NCBI GenBank assembly: GCA_016223245.1
Contig: JACRPL010000006.1
Coordinates: 85,417-149,416, forward strand
Direction: 5' to 3'
From: Candidatus Saganbacteria bacterium
GTDB lineage: Bacteria > Margulisbacteria > WOR-1 > XYC2-FULL-46-14 > XYC2-FULL-37-10
DNA: 64,000 nt
This document shows positions 15,636 through 62,025 of this stretch, piece after piece. Position 1 is the first letter of the stretch, and each line of letters begins with the position of its first letter. The position numbers and the translations under genes were made by a program. The notes beneath the pieces were generated by a model that worked only from the letters and a program-made list of their open reading frames with translations, was not told the origin of the DNA and did not search any database.

Positions 15636-16162
15636 CAAAGCTTCTCCGAAAAATGCTCGATCAATTTATCTTTTAATTCGTCGCTAAGCGGGGTCGGTTT
15701 GATATCGCTCAAAATATCGTCTATTTGGTCGCGTGAAACAGTTATGTTCATCAATACTTCTTCGCGCTGCATTGGCGGAAGTTTTGAAAGCATAAATGCG
15801 GCGATCTGCGGGCGCTCGCTTGAAAGCAAATATGCTATTTTCTTGCTGCTCGAATGGTATATCCTATCCTTATCTCCAGGCGCTTTCGGCCCCGAGTAAT
15901 CAATGCCTGTTTTTCTGAATTCTTCCGGTATTTCAAAAGCAGGTTTTTCCGATGCCTTAGATTTTGGAGGGAGCGCAACATAACTGTTAAAATCAGCAAA
16001 AACTTCGCCGAGCGCTTCAGGGGTTGGCGTCGGAAGATGATTTATAGAGGATGCGATTATATCCGCAAGTTCTTCGGGAAGATATCTAAGGATCGCGGAC
16101 GAAGTTTCGGATCCTAAAATAGAAAGAAAAATAGTCGCTTTTTCCCGCCCCGAAAGCTTCAT
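15635..16162 (-). CDS. fliG: Truncated flagellar motor switch protein FliG (no torque domain)
   Basis: The start MKLSGREKATIFLSILG matches the FliG N-terminal domain that binds FliF. The segment SSERPQIAAFMLSKLPP corresponds to the EHPQ motif of the FliG middle domain, which contacts FliM. The protein then ends after about 175 residues, whereas FliG is usually 330-345. The C-terminal domain with the charged torque helix that meets the stator is absent, and the next gene, fliH, starts at once with no remnant in between. The start at 16162 has GGAGG seven bases upstream and forms ATGA with the fliF stop. The missing part may be encoded elsewhere or replaced by a second FliG. Confidence 0.85.
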   Translation of the reverse strand: MKLSGREKATIFLSILGSETSSAILRYLPEELADIIASSINHLPTPTPEALGEVFADFNSYVALPPKSKASEKPAFEIPEEFRKTGIDYSGPKAPGDKDRIYHSSSKKIAYLLSSERPQIAAFMLSKLPPMQREEVLMNITVSRDQIDDILSDIKPTPLSDELKDKLIEHFSEKL

Positions 16163-19621: not shown

Positions 19622-19823
19622 TTAGCTCCTTCGATAATTTTTCGATAAAAACATCTTTTGTCATTTGCGAAAACTGCGAGCCCTCGTTCATCCCCATAAA
19701 CTCGCCGCTAAAGCCTTCTTTAAGTATCTCTTTGTAGAACATCGCGAGGAATTCTTTGTTAACGCTGGAAGCCTGTTTGATATTAGGAATTGCGCCATGG
19801 TTGATATATGGATTTACTTCCAT
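19599..19823 (-). CDS. flgJ: Rod-binding protein, FlgJ N-terminal domain only
   Basis: The 74 residues match the FlgJ rod-binding domain (NKEFLAMFYKEILKEGFSG; FSQMTKDVFIEKLSKEL). The C-terminal muramidase domain found in E. coli FlgJ is absent, as in many phyla where a separate hydrolase opens the wall. It lies between flgI and the sigma factor, where flgJ is expected. The ATG shares a base with the flgI stop. Confidence 0.85.
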   Translation of the reverse strand: MEVNPYINHGAIPNIKQASSVNKEFLAMFYKEILKEGFSGEFMGMNEGSQFSQMTKDVFIEKLSKELSDNTKKI

Positions 19824-20941
19824 TATATTATCTCCAGGTCAGCTTTAAGCGCACCGACTTTCTTTAATGCCTGAAGTATGGCTATCAGCTCCTGCGGAGT
19901 AGCCTTAATCCTGTTCAATGCGCGTACCAGGTCTACAAGCCTTGCCGCTTGCGGGACATATGTCAAGGCCTTTTGAGATTTCTTGAAATTTGCGTTGGTT
20001 TGCGTCCTCAAAGTGTTAATTTCTGATTTGTCGATCGAACTTCCTTCAGAATAAAGCTTTACAGGGCCGATCGAAACATTGATCCCGCTGAAGCTCACTG
20101 CGGAGGCCGCGATCTTAACATTCTCTCCCATAACTATTGTACCCGTTCGTTCATTAATGACAACTTTTGCGACCGAATCAGGAACAATTGTCAGATTTTC
20201 GACTTTTTGAATGACAGCCAGCGCATCTTCCTGGCTAAAAACCGTAACTTTAACGGTCCCAGCATCAAAAGTCCTCGCATCATACCCCGCAGCAGCAATA
20301 GCGTCCGCGATCCTTCCCGCAGTCGTAAAATCAGGTGAATCAAGCACTATTGATAATCCGCCCTTTTCGCTGAACGTAACAGGGACTTCTTTTTCGACAA
20401 GCCCTCCGCCCGGAACCCGCCCGGCGGTCGATCTGCTGTTCCTTATCGGCGGAAGGTTCGGGATAAGGATATCCTGGTCAACGGTAATATTCCCCTGCGC
20501 CGAGGCGTAAACTGCCGAATCGGGCCCTTGAAGGGGAGTCAATAAAAGAGTTCCTCCTGCAAGGCTTGTCGCATCACCCATCGAAGAAACAGTAATGTCG
20601 ATCTTTTGGCCGGATTTTACGAACGGGGGAAGGGTTGCTGTGACCATTACTGCGGCAATATTCCTGCTGTTAAAGTCCAATTGCGGGGCAACGCCCATTT
20701 TGGAGAGCAGGTTTGTCATTGCTTGTTTGGTGAACCCTGTTTGCTGCGTATCGCCTGTGTTCCTAAGCCCTACGACCAGCCCAAAACCCATCAATTGGTT
20801 TTCGCGCGCCCCGAGAACATGCGCGATATCCTTGATCCTGACAGAAGGCGTTCCATAACAAGGAAAACTTATGGTCAGAATCAAAATCCCAATGACCAAA
20901 TCCCAAATCCCAACTTGGTAATTATTTTTTAGAAAAGCCAA
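19823..20941 (-). CDS. flgI: Flagellar P-ring protein FlgI
   Basis: FlgI forms the periplasmic P-ring bushing around the rod. VRIKDIAHVLGARENQLMGFGLV follows the signal peptide (split here by residue ~32), and the conserved GLRNTGDTQQTGFTKQ and LLTPLQGPDS blocks are present. The signal peptide core VGIWDLVIGILIL is encoded by a word-like repeat (20881-20920). 372 residues is normal. It overlaps flgH by 13 bases. Presence of FlgI and FlgH indicates a diderm envelope. Confidence 0.96.
   Translation of the reverse strand: MAFLKNNYQVGIWDLVIGILILTISFPCYGTPSVRIKDIAHVLGARENQLMGFGLVVGLRNTGDTQQTGFTKQAMTNLLSKMGVAPQLDFNSRNIAAVMVTATLPPFVKSGQKIDITVSSMGDATSLAGGTLLLTPLQGPDSAVYASAQGNITVDQDILIPNLPPIRNSRSTAGRVPGGGLVEKEVPVTFSEKGGLSIVLDSPDFTTAGRIADAIAAAGYDARTFDAGTVKVTVFSQEDALAVIQKVENLTIVPDSVAKVVINERTGTIVMGENVKIAASAVSFSGINVSIGPVKLYSEGSSIDKSEINTLRTQTNANFKKSQKALTYVPQAARLVDLVRALNRIKATPQELIAILQALKKVGALKADLEII
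20881..20920. repeat. Word repeat encoding the FlgI signal peptide
   Basis: On the minus strand the bases read as tandem words of the GGGATTTG / GGTCATTG type (TTGGGATTTGGGATTTGG and onward). The same words appear upstream of pta at 61990-62023. In the flgI frame they translate to a hydrophobic run that forms the signal peptide core. Confidence 0.75.
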
Positions 20942-21522
20942 TTGAGCAACCTCGAAAGCCAGCCCGGGCTTTCTGCTTCCTGTATAACGCCAGTGCCTTT
21001 GATCGATACCTGCGCATCTGCGACTTGATACGAAAAGATTGTATTGCTCCCGCTTATATCTTTCGACCGCACAACCCCGGAAATATATATTTCCTGGCTT
21101 TCATCATTGATATCCAGGGTGCGATGGCCTTCGACCCTTAAATTCCCGCTGTCTAATACTTCCGTTACTGTTGATGCTATTTTTGAAGTCACACTTGACG
21201 CCCTTTGCGTCGATCCTGCCCCGGAATATTTATTGCTGTTGCCGAATGCAATATCATTGCTCGTCCCGACCAAAGGCGTCAGGCGCTGGAGCGTATGCGT
21301 CAACTTTATCCCAAGATCGTCTTTTACGTTAGTGTCGGTGCCAGCTTTCTGCTGGGCATTCGTGCTTTCTAAAATAATTATTGTTATGATATCCCCGACC
21401 TTATAGCCCTTTTCAGGCGAATACGGCGATGATGAATTTTTGTTCCATAATGAATCGGCGTGGGACGAAATAACCAAGATACAAGATACAAGCAACAAAC
21501 AAATCCCAACATTATATTTCAT
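20929..21522 (-). CDS. flgH: Flagellar L-ring protein FlgH
   Basis: FlgH makes the outer-membrane L-ring. GYKVGDIITIIILESTNAQQKA and the late block GNLRVEGHRTLDINDE followed by GVVRSKDI are characteristic. The 197-residue length is normal. FlgH is usually a lipoprotein. Here the only Cys residues lie inside the hydrophobic core (CLLLVSCILVISSHA), with more hydrophobic residues after them, so cleavage after SHA by signal peptidase I looks more likely than lipidation. Part of the core is repeat-encoded (21473-21510). Confidence 0.94.
   Translation of the reverse strand: MKYNVGICLLLVSCILVISSHADSLWNKNSSSPYSPEKGYKVGDIITIIILESTNAQQKAGTDTNVKDDLGIKLTHTLQRLTPLVGTSNDIAFGNSNKYSGAGSTQRASSVTSKIASTVTEVLDSGNLRVEGHRTLDINDESQEIYISGVVRSKDISGSNTIFSYQVADAQVSIKGTGVIQEAESPGWLSRLLNWLF
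21473..21510. repeat. Word repeat encoding the FlgH signal peptide
   Basis: The plus strand reads ACCAAGATACAAGATACAAG followed by CAACAAACAAATCCCAAC. These are the words of a family seen again inside thiL (35618-35665, GTATCTTG units). In the flgH frame they encode a V-S-C-I-L type hydrophobic segment. Confidence 0.72.
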
Positions 21523-22247
21523 AGTTTAACCTCGACTTCTCCCTGGGCATTTACTACTGCATCCAAACTTTTGCTTGAATCTAAACGTTTGACCTTAATT
21601 GTATCACCAATCCGCCCATCCTCAAGCGCAATTCCAGAAACATCTATCACAATGCCGTCGCTTGATGATTTGATATTGACTTTTGCGCCTTTGGCAACGT
21701 CCGGTTTTGTTTTAACCATCGCTTCAAAAATCACAGCCCCTTTTTCGATGTTAATCTTTGCGACTTTGCCGATGATGTCATTTTTTCTTTCATAATAATT
21801 CATCGGGAGAAGCGCGACTTCCTTGTTTGAAATGGAAAGGTCATCATCTTTTATAACGGCATTTCGTTTTATTCTTTCCTTAGCCGTTGCTATTTCCTTG
21901 AAAACTTCAAGCCTTACCCACAAATTAACGTTCTCGATCTTGCCGCCCCCCTTAAAGATCAGCGGAATAAGCATCCGGGGCGTGATCTTTGAAAGATTGT
22001 AATTTTCGGAAACTTTAACCTGGACATTTTGGTCGTTTAAATATTTATCGGTCATATTCTCGGCCCCGGAGAACGATACCTTAATATTGTCGTCCTCCCA
22101 GTCAGACCTTTCGGACATGACATAATCTTTTATGGCATTCTCGATCTTGTCGTTTATCGAATCGGCATGGACAGGGGCAGCAAATGATAATATCCCAAAT
22201 ACCAAAACCAAGACCCAATTTGTCATTTGAAATTTGTCATTTGTCAT
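21519..22247 (-). CDS. flgA: Flagellar P-ring assembly chaperone FlgA
   Basis: FlgA helps FlgI polymerise in the periplasm. The C-terminal 130 residues contain the SAF-type domain (IKRNAVIKDDDLSI; IIGKVAKINIEKGAVIFEAM; VKTKPDVAKGAKVNI). The N-terminus MTNDKFQMTNWVLVLVFGIL is a signal peptide, cleaved after PVHA, and its n-region and core come from a word repeat. 242 residues. It overlaps flgH by four bases. Confidence 0.93.
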   Translation of the reverse strand: MTNDKFQMTNWVLVLVFGILSFAAPVHADSINDKIENAIKDYVMSERSDWEDDNIKVSFSGAENMTDKYLNDQNVQVKVSENYNLSKITPRMLIPLIFKGGGKIENVNLWVRLEVFKEIATAKERIKRNAVIKDDDLSISNKEVALLPMNYYERKNDIIGKVAKINIEKGAVIFEAMVKTKPDVAKGAKVNIKSSSDGIVIDVSGIALEDGRIGDTIKVKRLDSSKSLDAVVNAQGEVEVKL

Positions 22248-22248
22248 T
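22193..22248. repeat. Word repeat encoding the FlgA N-terminus
   Basis: The plus strand reads CCAAATACCAAAACCAAGAC then CAATTTGTCATTTGAAATTT followed by TGTCATTTGTCATT. The TTTGTCATT word also occurs at 39771-39815 (leuC) and 43928-43962. It encodes MTNDKFQMTN and the start of the hydrophobic core. Confidence 0.78.
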
Positions 22249-30858: not shown

Positions 30859-32025
30859 TTATATGGCGAGCGTAGTCAAGGCTTCGGCGGCAAGAAATAA
30901 CGATCCAGCGACAACTATCGGATTGCCAATTTTTCTAGCTTTTTTAACCGCTTCGGCTACAGGCAAATAATTCGGCAGATCAGCCGCTTGAGGATGGGAA
31001 GATTTTGCAAGAATAATATTCTTTGAAAATGATCCATAAATTCCAAGCATTGATCCAATGTCCTTATCCTCTTGGAATCCCAGTATAAAAGTAAAAGGCT
31101 TATTGATATTTAATTCTTTAAGAGACTCGATAAGGGCTTTCGCGCCGGCTGGATTATGCGCCCCGTCCACTATAATGAAAGGATCGTTAGAAACAATTTG
31201 GAACCGGCCCGGCCATTTTACCTTTCTCAATCCGGCTTCGATATGCTCACGGCTTACGGCTAACAGCTGGGCTACTTTTACTGCAACAGCTTCGTTTATT
31301 CTTTGAAAGGAGCCTTTTAACCCCCTCTCATTCTCCCCCTTGGTAAGGGGGAGATGTCCCGAGTCCTGAGCGAAGTCGAAGGGTCGAGGGACAGAGGGGG
31401 TGACCATTTCGCATTTCGCATCTCGCATCTCGCATCTCGATTTTATTACATCCAAAGCTTCAGGTTTGTTCTCAGCTGTCACCAAAGGAACTCCCTCTTT
31501 AATGATCCCAGCTTTCTCAAAAGCAATATCTTTCAAGGTCTTCCCAAGATACTCTGTATGATCGAAGTCAACATTAGTAATGACGGAAATTTGAGGGATA
31601 ATGACATTTGTCGCATCAAGCCTTCCGCCCAGCCCAACTTCAACGATTGCGATATCAATTTTCTGTTCGGCAAAATATTTGAACGCAATGCATACGATGA
31701 TCTCAAACTGAGTTAGTTCCAGATCTAGACTTTTTGAAATTCTTTGGATGTTTGAGGTTTGATGTTGGAGGTTATCATCTAATATTTCGTCACCATCAAC
31801 CTTAATTCGCTCATTCCATTTATATAGATGTGGAGAAGTAAAAAGCCCTACTTTTTGGCCGGATTCTTTGAGGATTGAAGCAAGCATTGCACAGACAGAA
31901 CCTTTGCCGTTAGTGCCAGCTACATGGATCGATTTGAATTTTACGTGCGGATCCCCAAGTTCTTTTAAGACGGCAGATACTCGTTCAAGCCCAAGGTTAA
32001 TATTTAGCGTATCGAAATCGAGCAT
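30859..32025 (-). CDS. folC: Folylpolyglutamate synthase / dihydrofolate synthase, with repeat insertions
   Basis: FolC adds glutamate to folates. IHVAGTNGKGSVCAMLASIL at ~34 is the P-loop, ITNVDFDHTEYLG the second metal/ATP motif and IIVDGAHNPAGAKALI the late motif. Three repeat-encoded stretches interrupt it: LQHQTSNIQRISK (~83-96), CEMRDAKCEM (~195-207), and VPRPFDFAQDSGHLPLTKGE with neighbours (~208-235). All keep frame, and core motifs are intact. A TATAAT box six bases before the ATG suggests a leaderless mRNA. Confidence 0.92.
   Translation of the reverse strand: MLDFDTLNINLGLERVSAVLKELGDPHVKFKSIHVAGTNGKGSVCAMLASILKESGQKVGLFTSPHLYKWNERIKVDGDEILDDNLQHQTSNIQRISKSLDLELTQFEIIVCIAFKYFAEQKIDIAIVEVGLGGRLDATNVIIPQISVITNVDFDHTEYLGKTLKDIAFEKAGIIKEGVPLVTAENKPEALDVIKSRCEMRDAKCEMVTPSVPRPFDFAQDSGHLPLTKGENERGLKGSFQRINEAVAVKVAQLLAVSREHIEAGLRKVKWPGRFQIVSNDPFIIVDGAHNPAGAKALIESLKELNINKPFTFILGFQEDKDIGSMLGIYGSFSKNIILAKSSHPQAADLPNYLPVAEAVKKARKIGNPIVVAGSLFLAAEALTTLAI
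31321..31400. repeat. CCCCCTCT...AGAGGGGG palindromic element in folC
   Basis: The ends CCCCCTCT and AGAGGGGG are complementary. Inside are the hairpin TCTCCCCCTTGGTAAGGGGGAGA and the word CCTGAGCGAAGTCGAAGG. It is translated in folC as a polar Pro/Gly loop. A shorter relative is at 34403-34450. Confidence 0.8.
31406..31441. repeat. Tandem TCGCAT word repeat in folC
   Basis: Five near-identical units of about seven bases (TTTCGCA / TCTCGCA) lie directly beside the palindromic element. The minus strand translation is RCEMRDAKCEM. It belongs to the same style of short-word repeats found in thiL, leuC and the flg genes. Confidence 0.75.
31737..31775. repeat. Word repeat in folC (TTTGAGGTTTGATGTTGGAGG type)
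   Basis: The plus strand reads TTTGGATGTTTGAGGTTTGA followed by TGTTGGAGG. The words recall GGAAGTTGGATGTTTGAATTT in thiL (36088-36181). It is translated on the minus strand as LQHQTSNIQ. Confidence 0.65.
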
Positions 32026-35262: not shown

Positions 35263-36291
35263 TTATTTTTTAAAATGCTCATAGCCGCCTTTAGAAATAG
35301 AAATATCCCCTTTTGAGTCAATAAGCTTTACACCAAACGACTTTGGAAAGATCTCTCCAACAATCGTCACCTTACCTATTAATTCTTTCGGCAACTTATC
35401 TATCTTGTTTATTGGGACTGTAAAAACCAATTCATATTCTTCTCCGCCGTAAAGAGCATTTTCAAGCGTTGCGCCTTTTGCTTTTGGGACATGGTCGGAA
35501 TTGATCAAAGCGCCGACTGAACTTGCCTTGCAAACTTCCAAGACGGATCGTACAAGTCCGTCGCTTGAGTCTATCATTGAGGAAACAATCCCGGATTTAG
35601 CTAAAATTCTCGCTTCAGTGTTTCTCGATTTGTATCTTGTATTTTGTATCTTGTATCTTGCGGCGGCTTCTCCTCCAAATTTCCCAGTCACACATATTAA
35701 GTCGCCAGGCTTCGCTCCTGAACGAGTCAAAAGATATTCTTTTTCGACTTCACCTAATAGAGTGATCGATATGAACATTGATCTTGGCGACGCGACCGTA
35801 TCGCCACCGACAATGTCGATCTTATGCTTCTTGGCAGAGGAGTTCATACCATTATAGATTTCCAGAGCATCTTTAGCCTCTAAGTTTTCAGGAAATCCGA
35901 CAGTTACAACTGCATGGGTTGGAAGTCCACCCATAGCTGAAATATCAGATATGTTGGAAAAAAGAGCTTTGCAGCCCAGATGGAAAAAGGGGCCACTCCT
36001 GTCCCGATGAACATCGGGGCGGTTCCTCCCACTTTTTTCTAATTTGAAATGCACTCCTTCAACCATAGTATCAGTAGTAATTAATTGATATTTTTGAATA
36101 TTTGAATTTTGAACTTTGGATTTGTTTGGATATTTGGATTTGGAAGTTGGATGTTTGAATTTGGAAGTTGGATGTTGTATTACGGCGCAGTCATCCCCAA
36201 TTCCTATAACGGTATCCGACCGTTTGTTCTTTTTTTCGGCTTTTTTGAGAAGTTCGATAAGTCCAAATTCGCCAAGCTGGGATAGTTTCAT
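35263..36291 (-). CDS. thiL: Thiamine-monophosphate kinase with repeat insertions
   Basis: ThiL phosphorylates thiamine monophosphate to the cofactor. Core motifs are DTVIGIGDDCAVI (~26-38), TTDTMVEGVHF (~73), LFSNISDISAMGG (~108-120), IDIVGGDTVASPR (~150) and SSMIDSSDGLVRSV (~233). Three inserts are repeat-derived: a Ser/Lys/Pro/Asn-rich run at ~37-68, RNRPDVHRDRSGPFFH at ~85-102, and KIQNTRYKSRNTEAR at ~209-222. All keep frame, giving 342 residues against the usual ~320. TATAAT lies six bases before the ATG. Confidence 0.93.
   Translation of the reverse strand: MKLSQLGEFGLIELLKKAEKKNKRSDTVIGIGDDCAVIQHPTSKFKHPTSKSKYPNKSKVQNSNIQKYQLITTDTMVEGVHFKLEKSGRNRPDVHRDRSGPFFHLGCKALFSNISDISAMGGLPTHAVVTVGFPENLEAKDALEIYNGMNSSAKKHKIDIVGGDTVASPRSMFISITLLGEVEKEYLLTRSGAKPGDLICVTGKFGGEAAARYKIQNTRYKSRNTEARILAKSGIVSSMIDSSDGLVRSVLEVCKASSVGALINSDHVPKAKGATLENALYGGEEYELVFTVPINKIDKLPKELIGKVTIVGEIFPKSFGVKLIDSKGDISISKGGYEHFKK
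35618..35665. repeat. GTATCTTG word repeat inside thiL
   Basis: The plus strand reads CTCGATTTGTATCTTGTATT then TTGTATCTTGTATCTTG. The same words build the FlgH signal peptide on the opposite reading. In thiL they encode KIQNTRYKSRN. Confidence 0.8.
36000..36035. repeat. CCCGATGAACATCGGG hairpin inside thiL
   Basis: TGTCCCGATGAACATCGGGG is a short perfect hairpin translated as RPDVHRDR. Related CCCGATnnnCATCGGG-type hairpins occur in the composite elements at 43443-43463 and 44811-44830. Confidence 0.7.
36088..36181. repeat. Long word repeat inside thiL
   Basis: The plus strand has tandem words such as ATTTTTGAATATTTGAATTT and GGAAGTTGGATGTTTGAATT, then TGGAAGTTGGATG again. Two 14-base GGAAGTTGGATGTT copies are about 24 bases apart. 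It encodes a hydrophilic HPTSKFKHPTSKSK-type run. Confidence 0.82.
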
Positions 36292-43530: not shown

Positions 43531-43947
43531 CTAAACCCTTAAGATAAGCCTTTTTTCTAGCTCATAAATATTAAAGCGGATGGATTTAAAAGTTTTCCCG
43601 ATACTTGGATCGACCAATTTACCGAATTCTTCAAGCACCCTTATCGCCTCTTCGGCCCGTTTTATATTTGATTTAAAAACGCTTTTTAAAGTGCTTCTTT
43701 TCCCTTCTTCTTTTGTATAAAGCTTTCCGCCGACATCAGTTAATGAATTTCTAGCTCTTAGCAATTCTTTGCGCGGAAGTTTGCCAGTGGCCTTTTTAAG
43801 TTGATTTCTTAACGATTTAATGGTCAGAGTTGCTTTTTTGTCATCCAAAATAAATCGAGCGAATTCTTCAGTAACGCGTAATCCCTCCATCGCCCTATTT
43901 ACGTTCGCATCTAGAATTCTGTATATTTTTAATTTGTCATTTGTCAT
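43531..43947 (-). CDS. Stand-alone ThiE N-terminal-extension-like protein
   Basis: The start IYRILDANVNRAMEGLRVTE is like the N-terminal extension found in cyanobacterial and other long ThiE (thiamine phosphate synthase) proteins. Here it stands alone: about 138 helical residues with EEAIRVLEEFGKL repeating the pattern, and no TIM-barrel ThiE domain. Its function in thiamine synthesis is unknown. The first codons (MTNDK) come from a TTTGTCATT word repeat, so the true start may have been moved by it. Confidence 0.6.
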   Translation of the reverse strand: MTNDKLKIYRILDANVNRAMEGLRVTEEFARFILDDKKATLTIKSLRNQLKKATGKLPRKELLRARNSLTDVGGKLYTKEEGKRSTLKSVFKSNIKRAEEAIRVLEEFGKLVDPSIGKTFKSIRFNIYELEKRLILRV

Positions 43948-43962
43948 TTGAAATTTGTTATT
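43928..43962. repeat. TTTGTCATT word repeat at a gene start
   Basis: AATTTGTCATTTGTCATTTG then AAATTTGTTATTA lies over the start codon of the ThiE-related gene and is nearly the same as the repeat over the flgA start. Confidence 0.78.
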
Positions 43963-43966
43963 ACCG

Positions 43967-44905
43967 TCATGGCATGACGGTTGTGACCCACTGCTTGGGT
44001 TCGACCCTGATATTGTGAACCGACATTCCCCAATGAAGATGGGGACCAGATGATATCCCCGTATTTCCGGATAATCCCAAAAGATCGCCGGTTGATACTT
44101 CCTGTCCCACTTTTGCAAGCACTTTTGAAAAATGGAAATAAAGAGTATTAACGCCTTGGCCATGATCTATTACAACTGTCCCTCCAAATGCTTTCAAGAA
44201 GTCCGCAAAAACAACTATTCCACTGTTTGGCGCCAATATTCTGGTCCCTGCCGCCGCTCTCATATCCCAGCCCCGATGCCGGCTTCGGGGCTTGTTGTTT
44301 ACAAATTCTCTGGTACCGAACGGCATAGTTGTTATCCCGGGAACAGGTTTTGCAAACAGGCCATCCCACAATTTTTTTGGGCTTTCTTTTGTCAATAAAG
44401 CTTCGATCGACGCCCATTCATTGTTCACGATCGAGGGAGCTCGCAGTTTGCTTTTGCTTGGCTTCAGGAAAAATTTCTCTATGGGGTATTTGAACTGGCT
44501 GACATAGATCGATGAATCAAAAGTTTCCGTTTCCCCGTTCTTTAAATACGCCTCTACATTGACAGGATATACGCCGATCTTTTCTTCCGGCATGGTCCCT
44601 ACTATCGCTCTTAATCCGTCTTCGTATTGGTACAATTTGTAAGCGCGGCCGTTGAATTTTACTATCCCGCTTTCAACTTCAGGGCTGCCTGAAACAAAGA
44701 CTATAAAACATCTGCCTTGGAATACTTCAGAATGCGCGACGACGTTTAGGGTGGCAGATGAAGGAAATGCACAAAGTGAAAGAAAAAAGATTATAGACCA
44801 GCGGCTAAATCCCGATGTGGGAATCGGGACAAGCGTCGCGGTTATTAAACTTTTGGAACCGCGAGCCGTGCCTGCCGGCAGGCAGGGTTTACTCGCAGGT
44901 TCCAC
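43967..44905 (-). CDS. M23 (LytM-type) metallopeptidase with repeat-encoded N-terminus
   Basis: The C-terminal peptidase has RHRGWDMRAAAGTRI with the metal His and Asp, and GPHLHWGM with HxH, so an active zinc endopeptidase acting on peptidoglycan is expected. The GTG at 44905 has AAGGAG eight bases upstream and overlaps the panD stop (TAGTG). The next 100 bases are a composite hairpin repeat, giving MEPASKPCLPAGTARGSK at the front. Only after about 37 residues comes the hydrophobic signal core SIIFFLSLCAFPSSA. The element seems to have entered just behind the start codon. Confidence 0.88.
   Translation of the reverse strand: MEPASKPCLPAGTARGSKSLITATLVPIPTSGFSRWSIIFFLSLCAFPSSATLNVVAHSEVFQGRCFIVFVSGSPEVESGIVKFNGRAYKLYQYEDGLRAIVGTMPEEKIGVYPVNVEAYLKNGETETFDSSIYVSQFKYPIEKFFLKPSKSKLRAPSIVNNEWASIEALLTKESPKKLWDGLFAKPVPGITTMPFGTREFVNNKPRSRHRGWDMRAAAGTRILAPNSGIVVFADFLKAFGGTVVIDHGQGVNTLYFHFSKVLAKVGQEVSTGDLLGLSGNTGISSGPHLHWGMSVHNIRVEPKQWVTTVMP
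44800..44903. repeat. Composite hairpin element (inverted orientation) inside the M23 gene
   Basis: Unit A on the minus strand spans 44901-44857 and is identical to the other three copies. The flanks GG/CC extend the stem (GGAACC...GGTTCC). Unit B with the CCCGATGTGGGAATCGGG hairpin follows at ~44800-44842. The whole element is translated in frame without stops. Confidence 0.87.
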
Positions 44906-57785: not shown

Positions 57786-59546
57786 ATGATAAAAAAAGTT
57801 ATTATATATTTAATAATACTGTCAGTTCCAGCATTTGCTTCTGGCCTTATAAAGATCGAACAGGTCCAAGACCCTGTAACTTTAAGGTCAGCCGATGCTG
57901 TCCAAGGCGAAGTCCTTGTCAAATTCAAACCTGCAATTTCCACAAAATCAATTTCAGCTTTAAGCTTGAATGTATTGGAAGTTTCGCTAAGCACTCAAGT
58001 TTATAAACTTGCGGTCCCACCGGGAAGAACCATATCGGAATATTTGACGGAGCTATCAAACGATAAGAATATAATTTATGCTGAACCAAACTATATTATC
58101 CGCGCCCATGCAACGACGCCGAATGATACTTCTTACGACTTACAATGGAATCTCCCGTTGATCAAAGCTCCGGAAGGTTGGGACATATCAACCGGAGATG
58201 CGACAGTTGTAATCGCAGATATCGATTCAGGGTGCGATACGACCCATCCGGACCTGTCGGACAAGATCACAAGCAATAGCAAAAATTTTCAAGGAGCCGG
58301 AAGCTCGATAACAGATCTTAACAGCCATGGGACCCATACCGCGGGAATATTGGCCGCAGTTACAAATAATAGTGTTGGGGTCGCTGGCGTCGCTTGGAAT
58401 TGCAAGATCATGGTATTGAGAATGCTTGATGCCGCGGGGACCGGTGAAGTTTTCGATTTTAATAATGCTGTGGTCTATGCGGCAGACAAAGGGGCTAAAG
58501 TCATCAACATGAGTTTGGGGACTTTGAATTTTTCCCAAAGTATGGCGGATGCGGTAGCATATGCGTACGGCAAAAATTGCGCAATGTTTTCATCGAGCGG
58601 CAACGAATCTTCTTTAACTGTTGATTATCCCGCAAAATTAGCAGGTGTAATTGCAGTAAGCGCAGTCGATAAAAATAAAAATATCACGCCATATTCAAAC
58701 AGCGGGCCGGAAATTTCGGTTTGCGCGCCGGGGGGAACATCCGATAGTGCAATTTACAGCACGATACCAAGCAGTACGTACGGATATAAATATGGCACTT
58801 CAATGGCCGCACCGCTTGTTTCAGGATTGGCCGCGCTTTTATTTTCAAAATTCCCAAGCATCACCCGCGACCAGGTTTATTACAGGATAACGTCCGAAGC
58901 TGAAGACCTTGGGACTGCCGGAAAAGACAATTTTTACGGCTATGGGATAATAAATATTGTAGAAACACTTGGAGATATTATTGCCCCCACGGTAGAAGTT
59001 ATTTCGCCAGCCGGCGGGGAAAGGATGACAATGGGTGGGGCATTGAATATTAGGTGGAGCGCATCGGATACGGGCATCGGATTATCGGCAACGCCTATTG
59101 CATTATATTATTCTTTGGATAACGGCGCATCATATTCAACTATAGCGGCCGCAAGTTCAAACAGCGGAACTTATAGTTTTACACTTCCACAAACTCCTAC
59201 AGCTGAAGCAAAGATAAAAATTTCTGTGGCCGACCTTAGCGGCAATATCGCGACCGCGGAATCTAAATCTTTTACGATCCTTAATCTTGCAGCAGGAATA
59301 TATCCATACCCTATCCCCGCAAGAAATCATGAAAGCATCTATTTCCTCGGAGCCTCCGGCGGAGACACCTTAAGGATCTTCGATGCAAACGGAGATACTG
59401 TAAGGACAATTTATAATGCCTCCGACCCGCAGATCGTTTGGGACCAAAAAAACAGCGATGGCTCATACTGTTCGCCGGGCATCTATTTCTATGTCATATC
59501 TTCATCCACAAGTAAAAAGACAGGAAAGCTTATAATATTAAAATGA
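57786..59546 (+). CDS. Secreted subtilisin-like serine protease (S8) with C-terminal Ig-like and sorting-like domain
   Basis: Signal peptide at residues 1-18. A fervidolysin-type propeptide (GEVLVKFKPAIS) precedes the S8 domain with Asp (VIADIDSGCDTTHPDL), His (NSHGTHTAGILAA) and Ser (YGTSMAAPLVSGLAALL). After ~residue 400 come an Ig-like beta domain (VEVISPAGGERMTMGGALNI) and a C-terminal ~75-residue module, YPYPIPARN...PGIYFYVISS...GKLIILK. That module resembles FlgD-Ig/T9SS type A sorting domains. 586 residues. It overlaps the PorV-like gene by four bases, suggesting joint export. Confidence 0.9.
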   Translation: MIKKVIIYLIILSVPAFASGLIKIEQVQDPVTLRSADAVQGEVLVKFKPAISTKSISALSLNVLEVSLSTQVYKLAVPPGRTISEYLTELSNDKNIIYAEPNYIIRAHATTPNDTSYDLQWNLPLIKAPEGWDISTGDATVVIADIDSGCDTTHPDLSDKITSNSKNFQGAGSSITDLNSHGTHTAGILAAVTNNSVGVAGVAWNCKIMVLRMLDAAGTGEVFDFNNAVVYAADKGAKVINMSLGTLNFSQSMADAVAYAYGKNCAMFSSSGNESSLTVDYPAKLAGVIAVSAVDKNKNITPYSNSGPEISVCAPGGTSDSAIYSTIPSSTYGYKYGTSMAAPLVSGLAALLFSKFPSITRDQVYYRITSEAEDLGTAGKDNFYGYGIINIVETLGDIIAPTVEVISPAGGERMTMGGALNIRWSASDTGIGLSATPIALYYSLDNGASYSTIAAASSNSGTYSFTLPQTPTAEAKIKISVADLSGNIATAESKSFTILNLAAGIYPYPIPARNHESIYFLGASGGDTLRIFDANGDTVRTIYNASDPQIVWDQKNSDGSYCSPGIYFYVISSSTSKKTGKLIILK

Positions 59547-60433
59547 CAAACCACGTTACCCGTTACGCGTTACTAATAATTGGATTTTGGATTTTGCATA
59601 TTCCTTGTTTTGCGGCAGGAAGCGAGGGTTTTGCGTTTACGAAAATACCTCAAGGCGTGAAAGCCGTTTCAATGGGCGGATCGTTTACGGCTATAGCCGA
59701 TGACCCGTCAGCAATATATTGGAATCCTGCAGGCCTCGCGCAGTTAACGGAAAGCAGGATATATTCGTCTTTTTCAAGTTGGCTGCAAAATACGGGCATT
59801 TCATACTGGGCTTCGAACTTAATCCGATATCCCCATACTTTCGGCGTTTCATTCTATAATTTGGATTATGGCGTAATAAATGAAACAACTTACGCTTCGC
59901 CGCAAGGCACGGGAAAAGCTGTTAATCCTTTTGAGAATTTGCTTTCTTTTACATATGCCAGAAGCTTCCATGACACGGCATTCGCAGGGATAAATCTTAA
60001 TTTTGGCTCGCAAAACCTGGGTTATTCATCGGCTTCATTTAATTCCATAGATGCCGGGCTCCTGTACAAATATAATAATATCGAAGGTTTATCTTTCGGC
60101 TTGGCTTTCAAGAATTATAGCTTGGCTGATAGGCTGCCAACAAGCTTAAGGGCGGGAGTTGCATATAGGACAATAATTGATAACCCGGAATATCCCATAA
60201 GCAGCAGCGCATTAAGCCTTGATCTCAACTCGACTTCCGGGAACAATCTGGCGGTAAATTCCGGAGCAGAATATATTTTCAACAAGACGCTCGCGTTAAG
60301 GGCGGGATTAAATTCCAGGAATTACACGCTGGGATTGGGACTGATGCTGAATAATTTCATATTTGATCTTGCCTACGCGCCTTATGAAGACCTGGGAAAT
60401 ACTTATCGTGTTGCTTTAAACTACACGCTTTGA
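59543..60433 (+). CDS. PorV/PorQ-family outer-membrane beta-barrel protein
   Basis: After the signal peptide (ALLIIGFWILHIPCFA) comes AVSMGGSFTAIADDPSAIYW then NPAGLA, the signature of the PorV/PorQ (UPF0164) family, and then alternating beta strands ending YRVALNYTL with a final aromatic/Leu pattern for BAM insertion. PorV is the shuttle protein of the type IX secretion system in Bacteroidota, but the family is wider. 296 residues. ATGA overlap with the protease gene. Confidence 0.85.
   Translation: MTNHVTRYALLIIGFWILHIPCFAAGSEGFAFTKIPQGVKAVSMGGSFTAIADDPSAIYWNPAGLAQLTESRIYSSFSSWLQNTGISYWASNLIRYPHTFGVSFYNLDYGVINETTYASPQGTGKAVNPFENLLSFTYARSFHDTAFAGINLNFGSQNLGYSSASFNSIDAGLLYKYNNIEGLSFGLAFKNYSLADRLPTSLRAGVAYRTIIDNPEYPISSSALSLDLNSTSGNNLAVNSGAEYIFNKTLALRAGLNSRNYTLGLGLMLNNFIFDLAYAPYEDLGNTYRVALNYTL
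59569..59600. repeat. Short word repeat over the PorV-like signal peptide
   Basis: AATAATTGGATTTTGGATTT then TGCATATTCC contains two TTGGATTT words and encodes the hydrophobic core IIGFWILHI. It resembles the flgI and pta-upstream words, but with only two units it could be chance. Confidence 0.4.
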
Positions 60434-61917: not shown

Positions 61918-62025
61918 TATGATAATGACCAATGACCAATTTCCAATGACCAACATTGTATCGCTTCGCGATAATTATAATAAATACATTGTTGGGATTT
62001 GGTCATTGGGATTTGGGATTTTATA
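61918..62025. repeat. Inverted word-repeat element upstream of pta
   Basis: The left arm AATGACCAATGACCAATTTC then CAATGACCAACATTGTA and the right arm TACATTGTTGGGATTTGG then TCATTGGGATTTGGG are inverted relatives, able to form a hairpin with a loop holding TCGCTTCGCGATAATTATAA. The right arm carries the same words as the flgI signal peptide. It lies directly before the pta start. Confidence 0.75.

Follow-up and report, generated by a model that had tools for sequence, protein, structure and literature searches.

Heptanucleotide repeat arrays appear to remodel signal peptides in the WOR-1/Saganbacteria lineage

Three neighbouring flagellar genes of a Saganbacteria genome carry tandem arrays of seven-nucleotide words in the DNA that encodes their predicted signal peptides (SPs). 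These arrays belong to real heptad families, which show a strong bias towards SP-coding DNA with a fixed strand, are restricted to one class, and occur in parallel with different words. The best explanation, which we hold with good confidence, is that dispersed heptad arrays persist in coding DNA where protein chemistry permits, and that those in SPs serve as export signals, remodel old ones and are then retained.

A signal peptide needs a polar, basic n-region and, after it, about ten hydrophobic residues; few other demands are made on its sequence. In the proposed mechanism, heptanucleotide tandem repeats would keep arising or spreading in the genomes of this lineage, and coding copies would survive only where protein chemistry tolerates them, with the strand setting the nature of the peptide. 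Because so little is required beyond a polar n-region and a hydrophobic stretch, SPs would accept T-rich arrays as the hydrophobic h-region and A-rich arrays as the n-region. Arrays landing there would work as export signals, overwriting or extending the older signal, and the protein's dependence on export would then preserve them. Both regions may, in several genomes, come from a single inverted (hairpin) heptad element with its A-rich arm first.

Heptad arrays in the flagellar genes

The window, meaning the whole stretch of DNA that was analysed, spans 64,000 nt (G000:C6:85417-149416) of a 1.65-Mb genome in 24 contigs. The nearest named relatives of its FlgI come from candidate division WOR-1 and Saganbacteria genomes, and the NCBI placement is the Cyanobacteriota/Melainabacteria group. 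The flgI gene (19823-20941, minus strand; Pfam PF02119, E 1.9e-108, match from residue 35) starts with a TTG codon at 20941, and residues 1-30 form the signal peptide MAFLKNNYQVGIWDLVIGILILTISFPCYG (20852-20941, minus strand). Its h-region is encoded by the T-rich heptad string TTGGGAT-TTGGGAT-TTGGTCA-TTGGGAT-TTTGATT (20873-20917, minus strand), inside which lag-7 self-matching delimits a strict array at 20896-20913; the array DNA is the 7-nt tandem TTGGGATTTGGGATTTGG.

In flgH (20929-21522, minus strand; PF02107, E 6.2e-48), whose signal peptide is MKYNVGICLLLVSCILVISSHA, the h-region is the T-rich array TTGTTTG-TTGCTTG-TATCTTG-TATCTTG (21475-21502, minus strand; lag-7 score 13.5), a 7-nt tandem with the DNA sequence TTGTTTGTTGCTTGTATCTTGTATCTTG. 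For flgA (21519-22247, minus strand; PF13144 ChapFlgA, E 1.8e-27; signal peptide MTNDKFQMTNWVLVLVFGILSFAAPVHA), an A-rich TGACAAA array (22218-22248, minus strand; lag-7 score 14; tandem DNA AATGACAAATGACAAATTTCAAATGACAAAT) supplies the start codon and the polar n-region MTNDKFQMTN. The FlgA h-region, WVLVLVFGIL, comes from the T-rich degenerate heptads TTGGGTC-TTGGTTT-TGGTATT-TGGGATA (22190-22222, minus strand), which were recognised by eye in the sequence and fall below the array threshold.

An earlier note on this DNA had described the three N-termini as built from short repeat words. The words are in place in all three genes, and the observation was, if anything, understated, since they are heptanucleotide tandem arrays dispersed through the genome. 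The interval 20881-22248 holds three lag-7 arrays, against a mean of 0.003 in 300 dinucleotide-preserving shuffles; for the whole window the count is 14, with 0.25 in shuffles. For FlgA the description needs amending: an array is present, but it encodes the polar n-region and start codon rather than the hydrophobic core, which comes from a similar but looser T-rich string. A suggested fourth case, a PorV/FadL-like outer-membrane protein with signal peptide MTNHVTRYALLIIGFWILHIPCFA (59543-60433, plus strand; weak PF03349 and PF03687 matches), proves correct. Two arrays, CGTTACC at 59554-59573 and TTGGATT at 59580-59602 (lag-7 scores 10.5 and 11, plus strand), encode its n- and h-region within 59554-59602.

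One peptide per strand

The words TTTGGGA, TTGTATC, TTTGTCA, TTGGTCA and their relatives occur in tandem and are dispersed in this WOR-1/Saganbacteria genome. Plain k-mer enrichment returns chiefly other palindromic repeats, and lag-7 scoring was used instead. In a 0.4-Mb sample of the window's genome, 45 segments match themselves at lag 7, against 3-8 segments at most neighbouring lags; most other lags stay below 10 segments, and those that do not (14, 15, 18, 21, 3 and 9) are for the most part multiples of 7 or 3. Nine genome samples contain 165 arrays in total, dispersed tandem 7-nt units of the type described as heptanucleotide short tandem repeats (STRR-like simple sequence repeats).

Since 7 and 3 have no common factor, three 7-base units make seven codons, and each strand encodes a single cyclic heptapeptide whichever frame is read. 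The T-rich strands of TTTGTCA, TTGGTCA, TTTGGGA and TTGTATC give FVICHLS (mean hydropathy 1.97), LVIGHWS, FGIWDLG and LYLVSCI (2.39), and the opposite A-rich strands give the clearly polar *QMTNDK, *PMTNDQ, SQIPNPK and DTRYKIQ. The T-rich sense is hydrophobic and stop-free, and the TGACAAA sense is polar and also brings a stop and an ATG. The idea that the words yield hydrophobic runs when read in one frame is therefore rejected: strand, not frame, sets hydropathy.

Arrays on the polar strand also occur inside FolC-like, MraW and further cytosolic enzymes, as in-frame copies in unrelated genes. In the window, lag-7 scoring finds two A-rich arrays in thiL (35263-36291, minus strand), one at 36140-36180 that encodes the loop insert IQHPTSKFKHPTSK and a CAAGATA array at 35630-35660 that encodes RYKIQNTRYK, both on the minus strand. 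The FolC-like ligase gene (30859-32025, minus strand) likewise holds a CGAGATG array (31405-31439, minus strand, encoding SRCEMRDAKCEM) and a second A-rich array (31744-31773, minus strand, encoding NLQHQTSNIQ). A ThiD2-family gene (43531-43947, minus strand) begins in a TGACAAA array (43925-43957, minus strand), which provides its ATG (MTNDK); TGACAAA/TGACCAA arrays also give the ATG of HisI-type cyclohydrolase, CoaE and HemN-like proteins. Another lag-7 array in the window, TTGGTCA (AATGACC) at 61924-61953, is intergenic. In the ThiL loop between GIGDDCAVI and TTDT, the heptad peptides vary by genus (QHPTSKFKHPTSKSKYPNKSK, KVKSQKSKVKS, RMTNDK...). Seen together with these polar-strand arrays in enzyme loops and at gene starts, signal peptides are the hydrophobic case of a wider rule.

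Further observations concern the same and other coding repeats. ThiL (the window gene and L207-L214) has two variable loops with genus-specific heptad peptides, a coding-repeat hot spot in a housekeeping enzyme. TGACAAA/TGACCAA heptads lie at or over the starts of the cytosolic genes for ThiD2, HisI-type, CoaE, HemN-like, RlmN and TsaE proteins (the window ThiD2-family gene, L091:9752, L090:11288, L035:9340, L082:11303 and L094:1405), and the unit contains ATGA, a start and a stop joined. Beside its heptad arrays, the FolC-like ligase has a second coding repeat at residues ~205-244: this longer segment has matches at several other sites of the genome, some of them in large open frames. The palindrome CCTGCCTGCCGGCAGGCAGG has about 30 copies per 0.4 Mb on both strands, among them copies at window 43967-44905 (minus strand) and in L208 (the G006 ThiL loop), and is also translated within proteins, as PCLPAG. 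FlgI of G015 (L068) carries an inverted repeat of the CCCTCTCCC type in its N-terminal frame immediately ahead of the signal peptide, a different repeat family at a like site.

Enrichment at signal-peptide gene starts

For the window's genome the survey of gene starts covered about 46%, and for each of eight other class genomes 5-13%; G025 and the out-of-class G034 are not part of the samples. Genes came from a simple home-made coding-score caller, start choice and SP class from our own scripts, and an SP call follows a hydropathy rule. The caller scores repeat codons as non-coding, and the FlgH and PorV-like starts were set upstream of the arrays.

Across the nine class genomes, arrays lie within the first 120 nt of 24 of 237 SP-like genes and 11 of 1380 others (odds ratio 14, p 3e-13). 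The same test gives 14/96 versus 7/562 in the window's genome and 10/141 versus 4/818 in the eight relatives, and the odds ratio stays at 10-14 over thresholds. Control lags give 0-3 arrays at SP starts, and codon-shuffled SP regions give almost none. Orientation follows the coding property: 18 T-rich to 4 A-rich arrays at SP starts, against 9 to 41 among other coding arrays (p 4e-7). Copies in these samples are thus enriched at the starts of genes for secreted proteins, where the earlier note had proposed to look for them, and the even spread over frames and gene positions that it had named as counter-evidence is not seen; positions and strands are strongly uneven.

A T-rich array makes an N-terminus hydrophobic and raises its SP score, so the SP class could be self-made. 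For the named families, though not for every hypothetical protein, the mature domains argue against this, since they point to export independently: FlgI, FlgH, ChapFlgA, PBP_like_2 (phosphate-binding-type), Peptidase_S8 (subtilase) with a fervidolysin prodomain, SLH, Big_5 and FlgD_ig. Array-SP genes have a Sec-type hydrophobic core near the N-terminus of exported protein families, and a simple cleavage-motif test of our own finds a strict A-x-A or lipobox in 18 of 24 array SPs, 138 of 213 other SPs and 303 of 1088 cytosolic proteins. The arrays probably function as parts of working signal peptides. Hydrophobicity alone is rejected as the cause: multi-span membrane proteins with an N-terminal hydrophobic segment carry arrays in only 1 of 170 cases, so T-rich hydrophobic coding is not sufficient for arrays.

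Array density per kb is 0.98 at SP starts, 0.175 in intergenic DNA, 0.08 at other gene starts and 0.055 in gene interiors. The SP-start density exceeds the intergenic one 5.6-fold overall, 7.4-fold in the window's genome and 4-fold in the other eight (p 8e-4), and the arrays of the nine samples are not predominantly intergenic (44/165). These densities bear on pure tolerance, in which insertion is equal everywhere, SPs are among the few harmless coding sites, and nothing is recruited or favoured. Coding permissiveness clearly matters, as the polar-oriented arrays in the ThiL and FolC loops indicate, and MacGregor et al. reached the same reading for TAACTGA repeats at the ends of proteins (PMC4679880). 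However, tolerance should not raise density above that of the least constrained DNA. Faster decay of intergenic arrays could rescue it, and we regard pure tolerance as a possible but rather unlikely account.

The earlier note had offered a choice between recruitment of ready-made export signals and harmless replacement of old ones. The excess at SP starts means that harmlessness is not the full account, and it does not prove recruitment, since retention that differs between sites would produce an equal excess. The excess over intergenic DNA may come from favoured insertion or from retention once the protein depends on the arrays; we tentatively infer retention rather than preferential insertion as its cause.

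Class restriction and independent acquisition

Within the class, arrays lie in the SPs of 10 of 28 FlgI, 12 of 27 FlgH and 4 of 23 FlgA proteins (26/78), compared with 0/59 for the same proteins in the rest of the phylum (p 6e-8). Of the 31 class genomes, all but 3 contain TTTGNCA triplets, which are absent from 26 other genomes of the phylum. All out-of-class FlgI and FlgH proteins among the 59 nonetheless begin with signal-peptide-like segments. Export therefore predates the repeats, which did not create it, and comparison with repeat-free sister lineages favours one side of the earlier choice: in FlgI, FlgH and FlgA, the repeats more likely replaced or remodelled old signals.

Median SP length in FlgI, FlgH and FlgA is 35 aa with an array, 25 without (p 6e-6) and 21 out of class. 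In the same-genus pair G028 and G022 (DNA 82% identical), the FlgH SP has a 54-residue array form in one and a 20-residue plain form in the other; the block is present or absent between flanks conserved on both sides, and the old signal peptide is not alignable. FlgH words differ by genus (TTGTATC, GTTGTTA, TTTGTTA, CTTCAAA, AAAGTCA, AAATCCA and others), and acquisitions at the same gene therefore look independent. Taken from sequence comparison, the arrays appear to represent repeated remodelling of existing export signals in WOR-1/Saganbacteria, with repetitive DNA as the raw material.

The use of different words for the same gene in different genera would also suit an origin in place, in which T-rich SP DNA grows heptads by polymerase slippage and words converge without dispersal. 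Many bacteria have an excess of heptamers, for which slippage linked to the polymerase footprint has been put forward as a model (PMC4692102). We nevertheless consider this origin improbable. SP array words exactly equal those of non-SP arrays in the same genome in 11 of 25 cases, where a letter shuffle predicts 1.1; T-rich first transmembrane segments of multi-span proteins almost never carry arrays; and the paired inverted arms described below are not a product of simple slippage. Under the remodelling explanation, the arrays would move by copying rather than grow in place, and would be translated and act in export.

Paired arms and a possible cassette

In the FlgI, FlgH and FlgA SPs, n-region arrays are 14 A-rich to 2 T-rich, and h/c-region arrays are 0 A-rich to 19 T-rich. 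This split is expected once arrays sit in SPs, given the codon logic of a T-rich h-region and an A-rich n-region. Beyond that, 9 of 26 array SPs have n- and h-arms that are reverse complements of each other, far more closely than in codon-shuffled copies, and in 10,000 of 10,000 trials the own halves pair better than permuted partners; most arrays are single-armed. A-first inverted heptad pairs also occur at six intergenic places. The FlgH block of G028 forms a long hairpin that folds better than shuffles (z -4.8). RNA hairpins at the FlgA, FlgI and FlgH starts of the window fold no better than shuffles (z -1.4, 1.5, 1.5), and a role in mRNA structure is not supported for these starts.

Arm pairing suggests that some signal peptides derive from one inverted element. 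More speculatively, A-arm-first inverted heptad elements may be portable SP cassettes, so that one insertion near a start codon, in any frame and either orientation, would give both n- and h-region, and the class would have, in its dispersed repeats, a source of export signals always at hand. As a separate observation, G009 has intergenic arrangements of an AAATCCT arm, a loop and an AGGATTT arm at L118:5255-5388 and 15753-15867 (115-134 bp), a possible free-standing form of the element.

The position of a unit not divisible by three within leader-peptide coding sequence, at the 5' end of genes for many surface proteins, also recalls phase variation, in which gain or loss of a 7-nt unit would shift the frame and switch surface proteins on and off, as with CTCTT in Neisseria opa. 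The best candidate is the SP of one Big_5 surface protein, with 4.6 perfect TTTGTCA units (L090:9239-9270). This role is very unlikely for the arrays at large, which are mostly short and imperfect rather than long, perfect and slippage-prone (the longest perfect run is commonly about 2 units and in few cases exceeds 3) and which also sit within housekeeping enzymes. Artefact, through chance periodicity of hydrophobic codons or errors of gene calling or assembly, can practically be dismissed despite the metagenome assemblies and home-made gene calls, as almost no arrays appear in codon shuffles, at other lags or in out-of-class orthologues and the pattern recurs in many separate genomes.

Comparison with known systems

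These genomes offer a lineage in which the raw material of SPs is readable from sequence, with dozens of parallel cases and sister-lineage controls. They also provide a simple rule, that heptads are indifferent to frame and strand sets polarity, and make the question of recruitment versus tolerance testable. In practical terms, the N-termini and loops of these proteins derive from repeats and should not be used to infer homology or start sites. In the open-access literature searched, no paper was found that describes dispersed repeats, heptads or others, supplying signal peptides across a genome.

Heptameric simple sequence repeats are known from cyanobacteria, Xanthomonas (GGGAATC) and Nostoc (GGGGATT), and include the STRR heptanucleotides of Calothrix (PMC4692102). 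Like the present arrays, they are degenerate 7-nt tandem units with few copies each, spread genome-wide and sometimes in inverted pairs. Unlike them, those of Xanthomonas are 89-93% intergenic, whereas density here peaks in SP-coding DNA.

In the TAACTGA direct repeats of Beggiatoaceae, cyanobacteria and Bacteroidetes, one strand gives the single repeating peptide LSVISYQ and the other a stop in every frame, as MacGregor et al. noted (PMC4679880). These repeats share the heptamer and the one-peptide property with the arrays described here, and their coding copies sit at protein ends; they differ in lying mostly just upstream of start codons, and the sections consulted report no use in SPs or as n- and h-regions (PMC4679880).

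The CTCTT repeats of the Neisseria opa leader peptide (PMC3960869) are also short and tandem, with a unit that is not a multiple of three, and form part of a signal peptide. They belong to one gene family and form long perfect arrays with an established phase switch, in contrast to the short imperfect arrays here, which involve many unrelated genes and words. Rickettsia palindromic elements (PMC10969869) are similarly dispersed, palindromic, in-frame in unrelated genes and tolerated by proteins, yet they are about 150 bp long with a family consensus, whereas the present repeats are tandem heptads sorted by strand and hydropathy. Finally, the coding tandem repeats of Borgs (PMC9879509) also lie in genes for extracytoplasmic proteins. 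Their units are all divisible by three and form disordered regions, while the 7-nt units described here form predicted export signals.
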